Virus record (IMG/VR): IMGVR_UViG_3300036715_000093
Location: 1 to 34,333 of that record
Strand: one strand, 5' to 3'
DNA length: 34,333 bases
DNA from: a virus
Shown here: piece by piece, positions 3,581 to 34,244 of the stretch
Position numbering within the stretch: the first letter of the stretch is position 1
Layout: every line of letters begins with the position of its first letter
Translations under genes and position numbers: made by a program
The notes under the pieces: generated by a model
Database searches by the model: none
Seen by the model: only the letters and a program-made list of their open reading frames with translations
Told to the model about the DNA's origin: nothing

Positions 3581-6500
3581 ATGGCCGGTGGTAGCGAAAT
3601 CAAAAGCGTCCTGACGTTAGACGTATCTAAATTCACCTCGGCAATTGATAAAGCTACCGCCAATCTGGAGACGCTCGATAAGCAATTGAAGAGCGTCGGC
3701 AAGATTTCGGTCGATTTTGAAAAGAGCGTTTCCGGCTTGAGCGCCGGAATTCTCAATGTTTCCGACAAATTCAAGATGCTGGACAAGACCGTTGACAGTC
3801 TTGCCGGCAAGCTCGGTCAGGCAGTCGCCAGCGGCTTCGATACCGTATCTAAAAAATCTCGCGAAGCATCCAAAGACGTTGATGACTTTGGTAAGGCGGT
3901 AAAGCAAACCACGTCGATCAATGCCGATCAGTGGATTAAGAAGTATGCCGAGGAGATTAACAAACTCGCACCGGCTATCAAGAGCGCCATTTCCTCTATC
4001 ATTGAGTTTGACCGCGCTAACGCCGCGTCTGGCAACGTGTCTGAAGCGAGTGCGGCCAAGACGGTTGCGGCGAAACTCCGCATTCTTGAGTCCGAAAAAC
4101 AGACCAACTCCAAAATCATCGCGGATCGCGAGAAAATGGCCGCAGAAGTGCGTGCTATTCAGTCTAAACTGGAAGCGGAAGCGACAGCGAAACGTCTCGA
4201 CGCATCGCTATATTTTGGCAAAAACGCGCCAAAGGGCAACGCGCTACGCAGCGAAGCGTCCAGCCTTGACGGTATGGCTGCTCAGGTCGGTCAGGAGATT
4301 CAACAGCTCGAAATTCTCATTAAGGAGCTGAAGTGGAAGAATGCCGAGATCGACAAGGGTATTCAGCTCACGCGCGAACAAGCTACGGCAGATGAAAAAG
4401 CCGCAATCGCAGCGAAAGAGAAAGCTGATGCTGAGAAAATTGCCGCGGCAGCGGCAAAAGAAGCTGCCCGTACAGCGGCGAAAGAGAAAGCTGATGCTGA
4501 GAAAATTGCCGCGGCAGCGGCAAAAGAAGCTGCCCGCGCATCAAAACTCGCTTCTGAGGAGTCTGCCCGTGCAGCTCGCGCAGCGGCGAAAGAAAAAGCT
4601 GATGCTGAGAAAATCGCCGCAAAAGAAGCCATCAGCGCTGCCCGCGCCGCAGCGAAAGAAAAAGCTGATGCTGAGAAGGTTGCTGCAAAAGAGGCAAAAG
4701 AAGCTGCTCGTGCTGTAGCAAAAGAAAAAGCTGATGCTGAGAAAATTGCCGCGGCAGCGGCAAAAGAAGCTGCCCGTGCATCCAAGCTGGCTTCTGACGA
4801 GTCGGCTCGCGCAGCTCGCGCGGCGGCGGTAGAACGTATCAGGGCCGCGCGTGAAGCTGCCGATTTCGAGCGTCAGCAGGCGCAGCAGATCGCGACGATG
4901 TGGAAGGGCATGGCGCAACTCTGGGGCGCGTCAAGAATCGAGAGAGGACTTGGGTCGTCCATAACCGGCGCCGATCAAATGCAGCGAGCGGAGGTGATTG
5001 TTAAGTCACTCAATTACTCGTCAGAGCATAACAAAGCGATCATGGATAGCGCGTTCGATATGAGTAACGGGCTGAAGTTCATATCGGTACTGGATTCTGT
5101 TAAATCGCGCATGTCAGCGATTGCGTCTATTGGTTACGATAACGCCGAAATAATTGACAAGACTCTTTCAAGCGCGGTAAAGGCCGCAAACAATCTGCGA
5201 TTCCTTGGTATCGCCGAACACGGCGACATGCAAACGACGATCAGAAACCTTTACGGCGTCGTCGAAATGCGTCAGCAGACGGCAGACCCAGAAGCTACAA
5301 ATAGAACATTTGAGCTGATGCAGAAAATCATCACGGGTACGCAGGGTAAGGTCGAGACGCAAGACATGGAAACGGTGTTACGTCGCCTCGGCATGGGCGC
5401 TGGTCAATTGAGCGATCATGGCATGTTAAATCTTGCAGCCGTTGTTGATCAGTTCAAAGTTGCTGGCGGTGGCGGCGATGGCGGTGGCGCTAGTGGTGGT
5501 GTATCGACTGTAGGCACTGCATTCAAAATGATGCAGGCTTACGCAATTGGTAAAGCCAAAACGGCGCAGGCTGTTAATGAGTTCGTTGGCGCGGGAGTTC
5601 TCGATACTGGCGGGCTAGACCTGACCAAAGACAATGCTCACATTTTGAGGGAAGCGAAAGGCGCTGGATTCAAAGACGCAAAGCTCTGGATGGAAGACCC
5701 AGTTGCGGCGGTTCAAAAGATAATGCCGCAGATCATCAAGTACACTCAAGAAAAGGGCAATGTAAAAAAGTTCTATCAGGGCGGCGATATAAACGACCCT
5801 ACAAATCAACTTGCGGCGGTCGCTCAGTACCTTGCAAGACTCGGCATCACGACAACCGCCGCAACGGCGATGATGGTTGCTGGAGACCCGCGTTCACAGG
5901 AGAGAATTAAGCATCAGGTTGATACGATGAGCGGCGCCAAGGGAATTGACGCCGTAGATGAAGAAGCCAGAAAAACGTATGGCAGATCAGTACAGGAGGT
6001 GAAGGCATCACTCAGCAACCTGGCAATACTTGTCGGCAATACGTTGCTGCCTACATTGCAAAAAGTTTTGAACGTTGTTGGCGACATAGTGAGAGGCTTT
6101 AGCGAGTTCGCCAAGAACAATCCACTTACCCTTCAACTGATGACGGTTGCGGCAGCGGCAACCGCCGTAGTGATGGCATTCAAGGGATTCGCAAGCGTGT
6201 TTGGCGTTGTGGGAAACCTGTCGTCTGCCATTAGAAACCTTGCAACGGGCTTTGGTAGCGTAAATGCGAAAACGCAAGAATCTACCGCCGCGCATATCGC
6301 AAACCTGGCAGCTACAGTGCGATCCACTGACGCGACGAGAGTGTTCACAAACCTGAAATTGCAAGAAGCTCAGGCGCATGTGAACGCGATGTCTGGTATG
6401 CAAAGACTGACGGCGGTTCAAAACGTTCTCATTCCAGCTCAAAGAGCGGCGTCTGCGGCGACGCAGGAGCATGTGGTTGCGAGCAAGGCGTTGTCTGCGG

Positions 6501-8965
6501 CGCAACGCGCGGCGAGTGTAAGTTCGAGAGTTTTGTCTGGCGCTGTTGGTTTGTTGGGTGGCCCGCTTAGTCTAATTGGCATTGCGCTAACGCTTGGTGC
6601 ACTCGCTTGGGACAAGTGGGGTGATGCCGCTGGCAATGCGGCAAGAAAGGCAGAGGATGCTGCCCGTCGCGCTAAGGCCGCTCGTGACGGCATGTCCACG
6701 ATAGAGGATAGAAAGAGAAACGCCGCAGACATTGCCGAGAAAGAGGCGGAACTGGAGAAGTATAAGGCAAAGGTTTCGTCCGGTCGCGCGGATTTTAAGC
6801 CGCTGGTCGAGGAAAGAGAGGGGCAGCTTGAGATTCTTCGCGCAGAGCAGTCTCAAATTCAGGCAAATCTGGACAAGCAAGACGCTGATAACAAGGCGGT
6901 AGCCGCTCAACTCTTGGCAAGAAGTAAGAACGTAGGCCCAAAATTGAACGGCGCGGATTTGTATTCCGAAGAAGAGAGAATTGCGAAGGGCGCATTAAAA
7001 GGGGCGCGTAATAAAGGCGACGACATTTCGACCGGCATTACGGCATCGGACCAGGCTGTAATTAACGCGGCGAACGACCCCGGCAGGCCCAAACGCCAAT
7101 TCGAAGACCTATTCCTTCAGTCTCTCGCCAACTTGCAGGGCAGGGAAACAATTGACAAACTGAAGCTCGACACGATCATGACTGGCGATGATTCGTATCG
7201 CGCTCAGGCTGAAGCGGCCTTCAAAGAACATTGGCTCGGCGGTCAGTTCGACAAAGGTCACGACCCGTCAAAGCGTTTGTTTAAGAAAGACAGTAAGGGC
7301 GGCAACGGTATCGACAATCTCGATATGGATGGGTCTTACAAGGATGACGCTGGCGTAACGCGCACGGTCAAGGAGTGGATTGACGCCAGTGAGGCAGGTA
7401 AGAGACTGGAAGGTCAGATTAAGGCAATTTCTTTCGCAAAAGAACGCGCGAAGGCGGCAACGCTAGATGCGGCAGACGCAGAGGACAGACTCAAAAACGG
7501 TCTGCTGAAAGAGTCGGATGCAATGCGAGCGCTCAAGCGTGAATTTGCCCGTCAGGAAGCGAGCGGTGTTAATGACGCCGGTTACGAAAAAAACAAGACA
7601 GAAGCCTTGCTTGGTCGCGCCCGCTTGGATTCCGTTTTGATGACTGAGGCGCTGAAGGAGAAGTCGCAATCCATTAAAAATACACTGGCTCCGGACGACA
7701 ACGATATCAAAGTAAAAAAGAACATCGAAGAAAACCTCAAGGTCGAGCGCGAATACCAAAGCAACGTGGCTTCGCTGAACGAGCAGATTGAAAACTACAA
7801 AAAGGCCGGATACGACAAGGACAGCGAAGATTACGCGAGGGCGATTAGAGATAAGGAGAATCTTGAGAAGGCTCATTTAGAATGGACGAAGGAAGCTGCG
7901 AATCTTCAGGCAGACATGCTCAAAACGCCACTCCAGAAGCTCGTAAAAGAATGGGAGAATACTAGAAAGCAAGTTGACCAATTGAGTGCCAATTGGGGCA
8001 GAGGCTTCTTGAATACGTTCGCCACTCAGCTCATCAAGGGCAGGGCAGATTGGAAGGGATTCTTGTCTGGTATGACAGAGGACGTTCTCAAAATGCAGCT
8101 CGACAAGACGATGGGCCGCGCGGTCGAAGGCGTGTTCGATGGTCTTGGCAGTTGGCTGAAAGGCGCGTCTGTTTCTGACAAGTCTGCGGCGCCAGGAGTA
8201 AACGGCGCAGCTACGACAGCCGCAGGTGGTATCGGTGGTTTGCTCGACAAGGCCGCTGGCGGTCTCAGAGACTTCTGGAACTCTATCACTGGTGCCGGCA
8301 AGGCAACCGAAGGACTCGGTAATGCCGCCGTCGATACTGCGCTAAAGACGGGTTCCGAAATAGCGGGGATGTCGTCGAAGATGATGGCGGAGCAGAACGC
8401 CACAACGTCGCTGATTTCACTTGCGAACGCCGCAAGTGCCGCAGCGGCAGCAATGGGCGGTTCTGCGAGCGGTGGCGGCAGTGGTCTTGGTGGTTTGTTT
8501 GGTGGTTTGTTTGGTGGTTTGTTTGGCGGCGGTGACGCGACTAATACTGGCTCCATCATGAATCCGCAATCCGGTTGGGATTACCAAATGTCGCAGATGG
8601 CTTCGCCGATTCAATTCGCCAAAGGCGGCATCATGACCAGTATGGGGCCGTTGCCACTCAATATGTACGCCGGCGGTGGTGTTGTAAATTCCCCGCAGGT
8701 CGCGATCTTTGGCGAGGCTGGCCCGGAAGCCTACGTGCCGCTGCCTGACGGTCGTAGTATTCCAGTCACCATGAATGGCGGCAACAATAGTGGTCCAGCC
8801 ACCAACATCACCGTAAACGTCGTCAATCAATCTGGCACGCCAGTTCAGGCGAAACAACAGGGTCAGCCGCGCATCGACGGCAAACAGATCGTTCTTGACA
8901 TCGTGCTTGGTGCAGTAACGCAACCTGGCCCATTTAGAGACGGCATGAAAGGAGCGCTCGCATAA
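3581..8965 (+). CDS. Tail tape measure protein
   Basis: At 1794 residues this is the largest gene, with RBS AAAGGA seven bases upstream. Architecture: an N-terminal helical region; a highly charged Ala/Lys/Glu-rich coiled coil (about residues 267-433) built from repeated KEKADAEK(I/V)AA units; a central region with two hydrophobic segments (about 847-880 and 982-1012); more coiled coil; and a Gly-rich C-terminus with the lambda-family signature FGEAGPEAYVPLPDGR (about 1710-1725). The protein sets tail length, fills the tube and is ejected at infection; the hydrophobic segments may insert in the host membrane. At roughly 0.15 nm per residue, a general rule for these proteins, the tail would be long, about 270 nm. 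No peptidase or lysozyme domain was recognised. Confidence 0.92.
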   Translation: MAGGSEIKSVLTLDVSKFTSAIDKATANLETLDKQLKSVGKISVDFEKSVSGLSAGILNVSDKFKMLDKTVDSLAGKLGQAVASGFDTVSKKSREASKDVDDFGKAVKQTTSINADQWIKKYAEEINKLAPAIKSAISSIIEFDRANAASGNVSEASAAKTVAAKLRILESEKQTNSKIIADREKMAAEVRAIQSKLEAEATAKRLDASLYFGKNAPKGNALRSEASSLDGMAAQVGQEIQQLEILIKELKWKNAEIDKGIQLTREQATADEKAAIAAKEKADAEKIAAAAAKEAARTAAKEKADAEKIAAAAAKEAARASKLASEESARAARAAAKEKADAEKIAAKEAISAARAAAKEKADAEKVAAKEAKEAARAVAKEKADAEKIAAAAAKEAARASKLASDESARAARAAAVERIRAAREAADFERQQAQQIATMWKGMAQLWGASRIERGLGSSITGADQMQRAEVIVKSLNYSSEHNKAIMDSAFDMSNGLKFISVLDSVKSRMSAIASIGYDNAEIIDKTLSSAVKAANNLRFLGIAEHGDMQTTIRNLYGVVEMRQQTADPEATNRTFELMQKIITGTQGKVETQDMETVLRRLGMGAGQLSDHGMLNLAAVVDQFKVAGGGGDGGGASGGVSTVGTAFKMMQAYAIGKAKTAQAVNEFVGAGVLDTGGLDLTKDNAHILREAKGAGFKDAKLWMEDPVAAVQKIMPQIIKYTQEKGNVKKFYQGGDINDPTNQLAAVAQYLARLGITTTAATAMMVAGDPRSQERIKHQVDTMSGAKGIDAVDEEARKTYGRSVQEVKASLSNLAILVGNTLLPTLQKVLNVVGDIVRGFSEFAKNNPLTLQLMTVAAAATAVVMAFKGFASVFGVVGNLSSAIRNLATGFGSVNAKTQESTAAHIANLAATVRSTDATRVFTNLKLQEAQAHVNAMSGMQRLTAVQNVLIPAQRAASAATQEHVVASKALSAAQRAASVSSRVLSGAVGLLGGPLSLIGIALTLGALAWDKWGDAAGNAARKAEDAARRAKAARDGMSTIEDRKRNAADIAEKEAELEKYKAKVSSGRADFKPLVEEREGQLEILRAEQSQIQANLDKQDADNKAVAAQLLARSKNVGPKLNGADLYSEEERIAKGALKGARNKGDDISTGITASDQAVINAANDPGRPKRQFEDLFLQSLANLQGRETIDKLKLDTIMTGDDSYRAQAEAAFKEHWLGGQFDKGHDPSKRLFKKDSKGGNGIDNLDMDGSYKDDAGVTRTVKEWIDASEAGKRLEGQIKAISFAKERAKAATLDAADAEDRLKNGLLKESDAMRALKREFARQEASGVNDAGYEKNKTEALLGRARLDSVLMTEALKEKSQSIKNTLAPDDNDIKVKKNIEENLKVEREYQSNVASLNEQIENYKKAGYDKDSEDYARAIRDKENLEKAHLEWTKEAANLQADMLKTPLQKLVKEWENTRKQVDQLSANWGRGFLNTFATQLIKGRADWKGFLSGMTEDVLKMQLDKTMGRAVEGVFDGLGSWLKGASVSDKSAAPGVNGAATTAAGGIGGLLDKAAGGLRDFWNSITGAGKATEGLGNAAVDTALKTGSEIAGMSSKMMAEQNATTSLISLANAASAAAAAMGGSASGGGSGLGGLFGGLFGGLFGGGDATNTGSIMNPQSGWDYQMSQMASPIQFAKGGIMTSMGPLPLNMYAGGGVVNSPQVAIFGEAGPEAYVPLPDGRSIPVTMNGGNNSGPATNITVNVVNQSGTPVQAKQQGQPRIDGKQIVLDIVLGAVTQPGPFRDGMKGALA
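4412..4845 (+). repeat. Tandem repeats in the tape measure coiled coil (66-bp and 42-bp units)
   Basis: Near-identical copies of a 66-bp unit (coding KEKADAEKIAAAAAKEAAR-type sequence) begin at 4412, 4478, 4586, 4652 and 4718. A second, 42-bp unit (ASKLASEESARAAR type) follows copies two and five. The copies differ mostly at synonymous or conservative sites; copies one, two and five are the most alike at DNA level. The unit length is a whole number of codons (22 and 14), so expansion or contraction would change tail length without breaking the frame. Confidence 0.85.
8489..8524 (+). repeat. Three exact 12-bp repeats coding GGLF in the tape measure C-terminus
   Basis: The 12-mer GGTGGTTTGTTT occurs three times head to tail with no mismatch and encodes GGLFGGLFGGLF. 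Exact DNA identity suggests recent slippage expansion. Glycine-phenylalanine repeats of this kind are flexible and amphipathic and could contact membrane, but that is inference. Confidence 0.85.
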
Positions 8966-30781: not shown

Positions 30782-31552
30782 ATGAGCAGAAGTAAGGGTG
30801 GCGCACGGGGCGCAAAACCAAGACAACGCGAAAGTAAGAACACGGCAGAAGAGTTCTTTTTGCAAGCATCTCAGGAAGTTGAGATAGTTACCAAGAAGCC
30901 GGTAGAGCAACTGAAGGCACGAACCGACTCTCAGCATCGCTACATGAGCGCAATCAAGTCCTCCCCTCTGGTGTTCGCGACAGGGCCGGCAGGCACCGGC
31001 AAGACATATATCTGCGGCGCAATGGCGGCAGAGGCACTCGACAATAAGCAGATCGACAAAATCATCATCACTCGCCCTGTGGTGGAAGCGGGTGAAAGTT
31101 TAGGCTTTTTACCTGGCGAACTTGAAGAAAAGTTCGAACCTTTTTTAGCGCCGTTTCGCGATGTGCTTAACGAGCGTCTCGGCAAGACCTATGTGGACTA
31201 TCTCATCAAGGTTGGCAAGATCGAGGCGGCGCCACTGGCTTACATGCGCGGTCGCACGTTCAAGAATGCCTGGGTCATCTTGGATGAGAGTCAAAACACC
31301 ACGCCGGCGCAGATGCGTATGTTTCTCACGCGCATGGGCGAGAACTGCAAGATGATCGTCAATGGCGATATTCAGCAGAAAGACATTTCCGGTATGTGTG
31401 GGCTTGAGGACGCTGTGAGCCGTCTGTCCTACATTTCGTCGCTCAAGATTATTCAATTCACGCGACGCGATGTGGTGCGCTGCGGCTTAGTTCAGGAGGT
31501 GGTTGAAGCTTATGAGCAGGGTCTTGGGGCCGACGCCCCTATTCGCTACTGA
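30782..31552 (+). CDS. phoH: PhoH-like P-loop ATPase
   Basis: ATG 30782 (256 residues) is the start after a basic N-terminus; an upstream in-frame GTG is less likely. The protein has the PhoH core: Walker A GPAGTGKT (68-75), the family-typical IIITRPVVEAGESLGFLPG (95-112), EKFEPFLAPFRD, Walker B WVILDESQN (164-172), and MFLTRMGENCKMIVNGDIQQ (180-199) with sensor-type residues. PhoH proteins are RNA/nucleotide-binding ATPases common in phages, with proposed roles in RNA metabolism during infection; the activity here is not proven. The 40-residue Lys/Arg-rich N-terminal tail (RSKGGARGAKPRQRES) is an extra likely nucleic-acid contact. Confidence 0.88.
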   Translation: MSRSKGGARGAKPRQRESKNTAEEFFLQASQEVEIVTKKPVEQLKARTDSQHRYMSAIKSSPLVFATGPAGTGKTYICGAMAAEALDNKQIDKIIITRPVVEAGESLGFLPGELEEKFEPFLAPFRDVLNERLGKTYVDYLIKVGKIEAAPLAYMRGRTFKNAWVILDESQNTTPAQMRMFLTRMGENCKMIVNGDIQQKDISGMCGLEDAVSRLSYISSLKIIQFTRRDVVRCGLVQEVVEAYEQGLGADAPIRY

Positions 31553-31580
31553 CTTGGGCTGACTTGGGTCGACTTGGGCA
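31551..31580 (+). repeat. Three 10-bp direct repeats (GACTTGGG) after phoH
   Basis: GACTTGGGCT, GACTTGGGTC and GACTTGGGCA are head-to-tail 10-mers sharing an 8-base core, beginning within the phoH stop codon (TGA 31550-31552). The 10-bp period equals about one helical turn, so the three cores face the same side of DNA. They lie about 20 bases upstream of a dyad/TATAAT promoter, a position suited to activator or initiator binding. Confidence 0.7.
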
Positions 31581-31598
31581 TTCCGACGCTTAACGCTA

Positions 31599-31619
31599 TA
31601 AGTTAATACTGTCTATAAT
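31599..31619 (+). promoter_or_regulatory. Predicted promoter: degenerate dyad fused to TATAAT
   Basis: TAAGTTA-ATAC-TGTCTAT (31599-31616; 10 of 14 matches to the dyad) runs into a perfect TATAAT at 31614-31619. The arrangement is the same, base for base in register, as at 32378-32398, with TATAAT starting 15 bases after the motif start in both. No good -35 exists at the usual distance, suggesting activator dependence. Leader to ATG 31654 would be about 28 bases. Confidence 0.6.
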
Positions 31620-31653
31620 AAGATCACTATTTACTATTTGCGAAACGCACGGA

Positions 31654-32376
31654 ATGACCCAAAGACCTACATGGTTGGGGAGCTTTTATGGAGGGAGTCT
31701 CGGCTTTCTGAATTACGAAGTTCTCTCAATTCAAAATATACCACAGAAGGATCTCGCCAAAGAAGCGGAGCTGATGAGTGTCAAGTGGTTCGACTATCGC
31801 CGGCTACACCCTATGCAGGCGACCTATTACTTTGTGAAATGCTACACCGATGCCTACCGCGACTTCTGTCGCAAGGCAATCAACGCCGAGACGGCCCCAT
31901 ACGTTCGGGCAATCAAGCAGCACGACTTTTTGGAAGCGAAGGAGAAGCTCTCGTTCTGGCGTATGCGTCAACTGTGCGACAGGATGGGTATGCGCTATGA
32001 CTTCTTTCTGAGCTTTGCGATGTCCTGGCTGCGCAAGATGATCGGTGACGGCAAGGTGTACCCGCCGCGCCCCTCGCAAATCATGAATAATGAGGATCTT
32101 ATTGCTTCAGCAATGCTGGCGTGGGAAGAGCAATGTCAGGTTTCCATGCAGGTCGCGAGCGACCTCTATTATCGCGTGTCAAACTTCACTGGTAGTAGAG
32201 ATCAGCAGGCGCACGAGGCTTTCGTCATCGGTCAAGTCAAGTCGCGCAACGTGCCGCAATATTCGCTTCATGCTGCGCTCTATCTATACGACGTAGTGAG
32301 AGTTGAGGAAGCGTTGCGACACTTTGACGCGAGAGTGGTGAATATGGCAATAAATGAGGTTCGGTTGCCTGATTAG
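31654..32376 (+). CDS. Hypothetical phage protein between phoH and the Hfq-like gene
   Basis: This 240-residue protein starts at ATG 31654 after a weak CACGGA. It is rich in aromatic and charged residues and mostly helical, with segments such as LMSVKWFDYRRLHPMQATYY, EKLSFWRMRQLCDRMGMRYD, SFAMSWLRKMIGDGKVYPPR and NNEDLIASAMLAWEEQCQVS. No known catalytic motif, signal peptide or membrane segment was seen. Placement between an ATPase and a helicase operon, with its own promoter, suggests a replication or nucleic-acid role, perhaps a helicase loader or regulator, but that is only inference. Confidence 0.65.
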   Translation: MTQRPTWLGSFYGGSLGFLNYEVLSIQNIPQKDLAKEAELMSVKWFDYRRLHPMQATYYFVKCYTDAYRDFCRKAINAETAPYVRAIKQHDFLEAKEKLSFWRMRQLCDRMGMRYDFFLSFAMSWLRKMIGDGKVYPPRPSQIMNNEDLIASAMLAWEEQCQVSMQVASDLYYRVSNFTGSRDQQAHEAFVIGQVKSRNVPQYSLHAALYLYDVVRVEEALRHFDARVVNMAINEVRLPD

Positions 32377-32377
32377 A

Positions 32378-32398
32378 TAAGTCATTACTGACTATAAT
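32378..32398 (+). promoter_or_regulatory. Predicted promoter: dyad element fused to TATAAT, before the Hfq-like gene
   Basis: TAAGTCA-TTAC-TGACTAT (32378-32395; 12 of 14 matches) overlaps a perfect TATAAT at 32393-32398. A TGAC sits just before the -10, close to but not exactly an extended -10. There is no good -35. Transcription from near 32405 would give a leader of about 57 bases ending in a strong AAGGAG RBS. Confidence 0.62.
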
Positions 32399-32461: not shown

Positions 32462-32785
32462 ATGCAGCAAGATCAAATTCGCGCCGACCAACAAGCCTAT
32501 GCCCGTCAGATCGAAGGAACACTTCATCGTCCTGCCGTAACGCGCAAACCTCTCAAGAGCGCAAATGCACCGAAAGGTCATGAGGCTTTTCTCAAGGCGC
32601 TAGAAGCGTCCGGTCAGATCGTTTCCTTTGAAAAGGCCAGTAGCGGCGAGCGCGTGGTCGGCAAGATCAAGACATCCGACAAGTACACCATCAGCGTCAT
32701 AACTGAGACCGGAACTCGCGTTCTGTTCAAGCATGACGTTTCTGAATTCTTCGCGCCGCGTCAAGCGTCAGCCGAGACAAACTGA
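32462..32785 (+). CDS. Hfq/Sm-like small RNA-binding protein
   Basis: ATG 32462 has AAGGAG seven bases upstream; 107 residues. Residues 41-99 align by eye with the Hfq Sm core. EAFLKALEASGQIVSFEKAS matches the helix plus first strand (Hfq FLNALRRERVPVSIYLVN), ERVVGKIKTSDKYTISVI matches the G-x-I..(F/Y)D.(F/Y)...L strands, and RVLFKHDVSEFFAP matches the Sm2 motif YKHAISTVVP including Lys-His. A 40-residue basic N-terminal extension (RPAVTRKPLKSANAPKG) is not found in bacterial Hfq. Expected role: hexameric RNA chaperone or RNA-binding regulator. Its stop is one base from the helicase start, so the two are co-expressed. Similarity is judged by eye; no search was run. Confidence 0.62.
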   Translation: MQQDQIRADQQAYARQIEGTLHRPAVTRKPLKSANAPKGHEAFLKALEASGQIVSFEKASSGERVVGKIKTSDKYTISVITETGTRVLFKHDVSEFFAPRQASAETN

Positions 32786-32786
32786 T

Positions 32787-34244
32787 ATGAGCGTTATGTG
32801 CCCCGCGACGGTGGAAGAATCCGTCGTAAAAATGATTGGCGAAAATTTCACTGGTGTTGCGGCATCAACGGAAGCAGAAGTGGAGGCGGAGACAGTCGGC
32901 TCGTTCAGTATGGACGAAGGGTTTGACGCCGACTTTCAGACCAAGATCGCGGCATTTGCCTGTCGCGATGACGAGTTTATGCGTCGCATGGCGCACTTGC
33001 TCAAGCCAGACTATTTCGAGAACGCCGGCGAAGCCGCGCTGGTGAATATTGCTCTGCGTCACTTTGCTAAATACCGCTGTGTGCCGGATAACGTCGCGAT
33101 GGCGGCGGCGATTCGCGAAGACGTTACGGCAAAGATCATTCGCAAGGATGTGTTGCCGCTGGTCGTCGCGCAACGCAAGGTTATTTTGCATGACGCGCTG
33201 AGAAATCGCGAGTATGTCGAGGACAAGGTGGTTGAGTTCGTGAGACATCAGGCGGTAGGCGCGGCCCTGCTCAAGTCTGTTGATTTGCGCGATAGACGGC
33301 AGTTCGACAAGATAACCGCACTGATGAAGGCAGCTATCGACATTGGGCTAAACGAAGAAGGTGACGGCTACGATTACGCCGCCCGCATCGACGACAGAAC
33401 GACAGAGCGTCTGGACAAAGTGTCAGGCAAGCGACCGCCGCAAGGCATCACAACCGGCATTGCCAAGATGGACGAAATGCTCTATCACCGGGGCTGGGGT
33501 CGCAAAGAGCTGGCGACGATCATGGGAATTGCGAAGGCTGGAAAAACGGTGGCTTTGATTAACTTCGCGCAGGCCGCGTCACTGGCCGGCTTCAATGTTC
33601 TGTACGTCACGCTTGAGGTCGGCGCAGGCATTATTGCCGATCGCATGGACGCGAGTATTTCGTCGACCATGATGAAGGAGCTGTCGGACAAGATTCACGG
33701 CGTTCGCGAAAAGGTCGAAGAGGCAATGGCGAAAGCTGGTCGCCTGATTATTCACGAATACGCATCTGGCACGATGTCGCCCAACATGCTGCGAAAGCTG
33801 ATTGAGCGCTACAAATCGCCAGGCCGCAATGTTGATGGATCTGTACGTCCGATCACCAAGTTCGATCTGATCGTGGTTGACTACGCTGACATCATGGCGC
33901 CCAACTACCGCACCCAGGACACCATCGAGAACTCAAAGTCGGTCTATGTGGATCTTCGTGCGATTGCATTCGAAGAGAATGTGGCAATGCTGACAGCTAC
34001 GCAAGCCAACCGTGAGGGTCATAAGGCGGCGGTGGTGAAAGCGGAACACGTCGCAGAGGACTTCAACAAGGTTCGGACGGTTGACCTGATGATCTCCATC
34101 AACAAGACGGAAGAAGAGGCCCGTGATGGCATTGCGCGACTGTATTTCGCCGCCTCACGCAACCAGGAGTCCGGCTTCACCATAGTCATTAAGCAGAATT
34201 TGGCATGTATGCAGTTTGTTACGTCTGTCCTGCGAATCGAGTAG
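32787..34244 (+). CDS. DnaB-type replicative DNA helicase
   Basis: The 485-residue protein follows the Hfq-like gene by one base with no clear RBS, suggesting coupled translation; ATG 32796 is an alternative start. The N-terminal domain (about 45-190) corresponds to the helical primase-interacting part of DnaB. The RecA-like domain has GIAKAGKT (Walker A, 247-254), VLYVTLEVG (271-279, with the catalytic Glu), FDLIVVDYADIM (Walker B, 359-370), TATQANREG (403-411) and ARLYFAASRNQESG (450-463), with an Arg finger candidate at 458. It should form a hexamer unwinding DNA at the fork. An RNQESG sequence replaces the usual DnaB KNR.G, a mild variation seen in phage helicases. Confidence 0.88.
   Translation: MSVMCPATVEESVVKMIGENFTGVAASTEAEVEAETVGSFSMDEGFDADFQTKIAAFACRDDEFMRRMAHLLKPDYFENAGEAALVNIALRHFAKYRCVPDNVAMAAAIREDVTAKIIRKDVLPLVVAQRKVILHDALRNREYVEDKVVEFVRHQAVGAALLKSVDLRDRRQFDKITALMKAAIDIGLNEEGDGYDYAARIDDRTTERLDKVSGKRPPQGITTGIAKMDEMLYHRGWGRKELATIMGIAKAGKTVALINFAQAASLAGFNVLYVTLEVGAGIIADRMDASISSTMMKELSDKIHGVREKVEEAMAKAGRLIIHEYASGTMSPNMLRKLIERYKSPGRNVDGSVRPITKFDLIVVDYADIMAPNYRTQDTIENSKSVYVDLRAIAFEENVAMLTATQANREGHKAAVVKAEHVAEDFNKVRTVDLMISINKTEEEARDGIARLYFAASRNQESGFTIVIKQNLACMQFVTSVLRIE

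Follow-up and report, generated by a model that had tools for sequence, protein, structure and literature searches.

Near one end of the 34,333-base stretch of viral DNA analysed here (the window), three copies of a short sequence follow one another at a 10-base period behind a phoH-like gene, and the question is what such an array serves and what may read it. The original prediction described three cores of 10-bp period that start inside the phoH stop codon, about 20 bases before a dyad/TATAAT element, and proposed that the factor bound to the dyad also binds the cores cooperatively along one DNA face. Its description of the array proved accurate: exact copies of GACTTGGG lie at 31551–31558, 31561–31568 and 31571–31578, position 31551 is the second base of the TGA stop of phoH (31550–31552), the ACTTGGG cores start at 31552, 31562 and 31572, and 21 bases separate the last core from AAGTTAATACTGTCTATAAT (31600–31619). 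An exact 7-mer triple with a period of 8–12 occurs only here in the window, and in 0 of 100 dinucleotide-preserving shuffles of it.

The array forms the left end of a two-sided element of about 115 bases (31551–31664), in which ACTTGGG boxes, an inverted-repeat arm, an AT-rich centre, a matching arm and inverted CCCAAGT boxes succeed one another. The earlier account had caught one side only, the inverted boxes and the matching arm lying about 80 bp downstream, at the next start codon. The box layout is usually 2+2 and in the window 3+1, and the gene order around the element is phoH, phrog_2500, a small ORF and a DnaB-like helicase. The parts of the element and its neighbours are:

30782..31552, plus strand: phoH-like gene, its start set at the ATG at 30782 (listed ORF from 30641), its stop overlapping the first box
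31551..31580, plus strand: left box array, three GACTTGGG with a period of 10; 2, 3, 5 or 9 boxes in relatives
31576..31585, plus strand: left inverted-repeat arm GGGCATTCCG, overlapping the last box
31590..31619, plus strand: promoter-like TTAACG-18-TATAAT in the AT-rich centre, 10 of 12 consensus positions
31600..31619, plus strand: AAGTTAATACTGTCTATAAT, an imperfect variant of a dispersed palindrome, overlapping the −10 hexamer
31650..31660, plus strand: right inverted-repeat arm CGGAATG-A-CCC, including the start codon of the next gene at 31654; kept in L004–L008
31658..31664, minus strand: right box CCCAAAG, which departs from CCCAAGT at one position and runs opposite to the left boxes
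31654..32376, plus strand: phrog_2500 gene (slot 1), the first after the element (E 1.8e-71)
32379..32398, plus strand: second dyad/TATAAT copy AAGTCATTACTGACTATAAT, without ACTTGGG boxes
32733..34244, plus strand: downstream gene for a DnaB-like helicase (E 3.7e-76)

At the place of the right box most other elements carry two exact copies. The left arm is predicted to pair with 31650–31660 (z −5.3), and the first promoter-like hexamer, TTAACG, is kept only in part among relatives. AlphaFold2 modelled the phrog_2500 protein only poorly, at a mean pLDDT of 63.9, and a fold search returned no matches.

Relatives were drawn from IMG/VR scans with the phrog_2500 and PhoH proteins and span 36–100% identity. 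The check named beforehand, a look for the triple repeat in relatives, gave a divided answer, since repeat number is not conserved (2, 3, 5 or 9) whereas at least two left boxes and their position are kept. At the same place L003 has three boxes, L004 nine (five exact and four with one mismatch), L005 five, and L006, L007, L008, L254 and L010 two each; expansion is confined to the left array. The boxes, their position and the centre are still present where the downstream protein is 36% identical (L010; about 70% in L008 and L254), and in L008 the sequence upstream of the element differs from phoH. The left arm GGGCATTCCG (with one change in L006), the AT-rich centre and the right arm CGGAATGACCC over the start codon are kept in L003–L008, which indicates that a larger element extends beyond the repeats, which form one flank of it, and that its presence outweighs the number of its boxes. 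These comparisons support the left boxes as a conserved cis-element ahead of a promoter-like centre. Boxes over coding starts fall in codon phases 0, 1 and 2 across different phages, which points to a constraint on the nucleic acid and not on the peptide.

Beyond these relatives, a first pattern matched elsewhere with ACTTGGG-N-ACTTGGG on the left, CCCAAGT-N-CCCAAGT on the right and about 110 bp in all. Simple 14-base patterns gave mostly chance matches among those listed, and a strict two-sided, DNA-only pattern was used instead; it produced 32 matches in viral_contigs and four in genome_contigs, the latter without a slot-protein match and apparently unrelated. By tblastn with slot proteins, 15 of the 32 loci lie at phrog_2500, seven at a small winged-helix gene followed by terS, and ten at neither. 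Many of the 22 slot matches are nearly identical to one another (a single A. baumannii phage-plasmid sequence accounts for eight), and by reading they reduce to about 12 distinct sequences, about seven at phrog_2500 and about five at the winged-helix gene and terS. Among the remaining ten, L321, L322, L323, L329, L335, L336, L337 and L340 were set aside because by reading they resemble other repeats, L339 adds another G001 site, and L328 is a satellite-like contig.

Two genomic slots thus recur. The first, which is the position in the window, precedes phrog_2500 and dnaB; immediately upstream of it, G001 and the A. baumannii phage-plasmid have a gene for a Rep3 (RepB-family) initiator. The second separates the winged-helix gene from the terS-terL-portal genes and is occupied in G001, G002, G016, G017, the A. 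baumannii phage-plasmid, L333, L334, L048 and L268. The window shows slot 1 only, and the TerL of the A. baumannii phage-plasmid had no match within its 34 kb; L333, a slot 2 carrier, shares its sample with the relatives L004 and L006 and could be closely related to the window phage. Full 2+2 elements have 81–93 bp between their inner boxes, with unequal left and right box spacers in seven of nine (two rows near-identical). A scan for the same architecture with any 6-mer recovered the ACTTGGG elements, a G002 variant and a dense repeat in ANB28, with one match in 50 block-shuffled sequences; it misses the 3+1 element of the window.

The same shape with other arms is found in further genomes. 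Three elements of SSU5 have arms like AACCTGCTTC: one stands before phrog_2500, one spans the record ends before terS/terL, and one lies at 78301. RHEph10 also has three, with arms like TCCGGTCCGTCTC; two are found upstream of gene groups containing phoH/phrog_2500/dnaB and terL, and the remaining one (96037) is incomplete on the right. Phage nickie carries two elements with a common TTTCCC...TTAACTACT at the same two operons, and ANB28 an inverted repeat at slot 1. Long-inverted-repeat scans missed the nickie and SSU5 elements; those of SSU5, RHEph10 and nickie were recognised by eye and are weaker evidence, which does not apply to the ANB28 repeat. In SSU5, RHEph10 and nickie the arms are common to the sites within a genome and differ between genomes, as expected for a co-evolving trans factor. 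The exception is G002, which has ACTTGGGG arms in slot 1 and ACTTATGCTCG arms, twice per side, in slot 2. That slot 2 element (L396 7060–7177, before terS) has perfect 23-bp arms of two ACTTATGCTCG units per side.

We favour, with moderate confidence, a paired operator around a promoter that co-controls the replication and packaging operons; the element is probably a control site shared by large phages and phage-plasmids ahead of both gene sets. A phage-encoded factor would occupy the tandem ACTTGGG boxes upstream and, about 80 bp downstream, the inverted CCCAAGT boxes that cover the start codon; it would probably sit as oligomers along one DNA face and may bridge the AT-rich centre by looping. 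Binding would switch a central promoter driving phrog_2500, the small gene, dnaB and primase, and the same element before terS-terL-portal would let the factor time the packaging genes with the replication genes. Two operon heads with shared arms in one genome argue for one trans factor, while a fixed box sequence, unequal spacers and an expandable left array argue for a protein on duplex DNA rather than a hairpin. Promoter-like hexamers, a putative promoter, lie in the AT-rich centre between the inverted boxes; such a centre, however, easily yields promoter-like matches (three in 1.1 kb against 1.2 expected). The absence of an inverted right box in L008 also speaks against this reading, and the differing arms of the two G002 slots are awkward for one factor. 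By position only, the winged-helix protein beside slot 2 is the best local candidate for the reader, but a near-identical helix (TTKQSMQFSIRAL) occurs in SSU5, whose arms are not ACTTGGG.

The arrangement resembles known systems in part. The paired operators that flank the promoter of E. coli gal likewise consist of two binding regions about 8–10 helical turns apart, whereas here the units are tandem 7-bp boxes of variable number, the arms lie over a start codon and the operons are those of phages. Lambda-type attP arm sites are direct repeats spaced by about 10 bp on either side of a dyad core, as here, but the present elements occur at several sites per genome and at operon starts. Literature searches on the palindrome and on operators and repeats of SSU5, phage-plasmids and nickie, in which subscription journals were mostly outside coverage, found no description of the element.

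The origin, packaging, hairpin and centromere readings are weaker than the paired operator. A lytic replication origin and/or pac-like site, in which the boxes would bind an initiator or the small terminase subunit and the AT-rich centre would melt or be cut, would suit slots placed exactly beside dnaB/primase and terS/terL and a centre enclosed by inverted boxes; moreover, the plasmid oriV of the A. baumannii phage-plasmid and of G001 is a separate 22-bp iteron array, which leaves a lytic origin to be accounted for. It remains doubtful because a single function accounts for one slot only, G001 has six or more element sites, and L328 has the element by int-alpA yet its own, different terminase genes. 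The extremes of cumulative GC skew, a weak test, also miss the elements except near the SSU5 record start, where one element lies at the record ends. The element itself was rejected as a Rep3 iteron origin, with iterons of about 20 bp beside rep, since the 22-bp iterons form an array of their own upstream of rep, accompanied by TTATCCACA boxes in the A. baumannii phage-plasmid.

A hairpin in RNA or single-stranded DNA, acting as an attenuator, in translation control or as a cruciform, is unlikely. Predicted folds are strong (z −3.1 to −9.1 in 10 of 11 elements), the arms differ between genomes yet remain complementary, and the start codon sits within the right arm, but inverted repeats fold well by construction and the fold of L010 is no better than that of its shuffles (z −0.7). 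The fixed box sequence combined with unequal spacers in seven of nine elements, and extra left boxes that lack a partner, also count against a hairpin. An Rfam search found no family match to the element and one sub-threshold match outside it.

Improbable, too, is a dispersed plasmid centromere of parS-like heptads that doubles as an operator. The parS/omega operators of pSM19035 are contiguous heptads, 7–10 in number, arranged in both orientations across several promoters of a single replicon (PMC9499535), and the present 7-bp boxes, direct and inverted over promoters at several sites per genome, resemble them to that extent; ParA matches were found in G001, G016, G017, ABpl and SSU5. The boxes here, by contrast, are separated by 2–4 bp and usually number 2+2, and no ParA match was found in G002, nickie or ANB28, all of which have the element or a counterpart, nor within the 34 kb of the window, itself possibly a fragment.

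In 28 elements with 84 boxes, hand-picked from those found with clear non-members omitted, 36 of 38 pairs of same-strand neighbours have a spacing of 9, 10 or 11 bp, so that the one-face binding of the original prediction is reasonable. Its assignment of that binding to the dyad factor fared worse, the dyad being a separate palindrome that mostly lacks ACTTGGG. Each core was said to carry GACTT, the right arm of the dyad; this applies to the palindrome at 32379 (AAGTCATTACTGACT) and not to the variant adjoining the repeats, and the G is not fixed in relatives (47 of the 84 boxes). AAGTCA-N4-TGACTT occurs 10 times in the window with up to two mismatches, against 1.1 expected, and in 6 of 10 cases in gene gaps or at gene edges (gap copies at 1938, 2849, 9328, 15863, 21850 and 32379); elsewhere the gap or edge share is 19/23 in G002, 25/31 in ABpl, 28/41 in G001 and 27/40 in G017. 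Two copies of the AAGTTAATACTGTCTATAAT-type motif (31600–31619 and 32379–32398) occurred together in 0 of 100 shuffles. A longer form of the palindrome pattern has 15–21 copies per genome in G001, G002, G017 and the A. baumannii phage-plasmid, one each in G016 and RHEph10, four in SSU5 and none in nickie or ANB28. Usually without adjoining ACTTGGG and sometimes followed by TATAAT or TATACT, the palindrome looks, from its sequence and placing, like a promoter or operator of part of the group; the centre of the window element holds an imperfect copy. Identity of its factor with the ACTTGGG factor is unlikely, and binding of the dyad factor to the triple repeat very improbable: ACTT is common to dyad and boxes, and a G001 element (54139–54241) has the palindrome in its centre, but most palindromes stand alone, the base before ACTTGGG varies, and nickie and ANB28 have a counterpart element and no palindrome. 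In G001 the sequence AGTCACCG is found both in the dispersed palindrome and in the iterons (TTTCAGTCACCGAAA) that precede the Rep3 gene (L348 18745–19025). A functionless tandem duplication that arose by chance, which slippage-like variation in copy number among close relatives might suggest, is hardly credible given the shuffles and the persistence of the element to 36% protein identity and at two slots.

A tentative possibility is a group-wide, two-slot lytic switch in SSU5-, AB_1- and Nickievirus-like phages and phage-plasmids, in which one phage-encoded factor would read a double-sided element before the replication and packaging operons, arms and factor would co-diverge, and a satellite (L328) would carry the element between int and alpA as a helper sensor. 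The element heads both operons across phages whose downstream proteins can be only about a quarter to a third identical, and it would offer a handle on the replication/packaging switch, help to find the regulator and serve to mark satellites that may respond to it. To our knowledge, the exit of phage-plasmids from the plasmid state and the timing of replication and packaging are little described outside P1 and N15. The likeness to SSU5-type and AB_1 phage-plasmids, a grouping taken from PMC12977533, lies in homologous TerL, DnaB and phrog_2500, and the element-bearing A. baumannii phage-plasmid has the size and host of AB_1.

In L328 (9,917 bp) an ACTTGGG element at 1938–2045 lies between the integrase and AlpA genes, followed by genes for a 484-aa protein, H-NS, HNH, TerS, TerL and protease/capsid. 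The contig resembles a capsid-forming PICI-type satellite, which we take to comprise int-alpA-rep, its own packaging and capsid genes and no tail genes; it ends in the protease/MCP gene, so tail genes could lie beyond, and it may equally well be a small piece of a prophage. The TerL of L328 belongs to a different PHROG (phrog_9), and the proteins of the contig had no matches in the genomes of the group, which makes it unlikely that its element serves the packaging of these phages; a sensor of a helper's regulator is possible. Searches found no second contig of this kind. Half-elements were also seen in two Acinetobacter plasmids (L224 at 4264, L247 at 9707), in stretches without annotated genes, and a 501-bp query from L224 that includes the edge of an ISAba22 copy matched 292 Acinetobacter plasmid records, mostly mobilizable or conjugative. 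The window itself contains 66-bp tandem repeats at 4412–4780, inside an ORF of 1794 aa, and at 8487–8526 a 12-bp tandem repeat, TTGGTGGTTTGT, in 3.3 exact copies.
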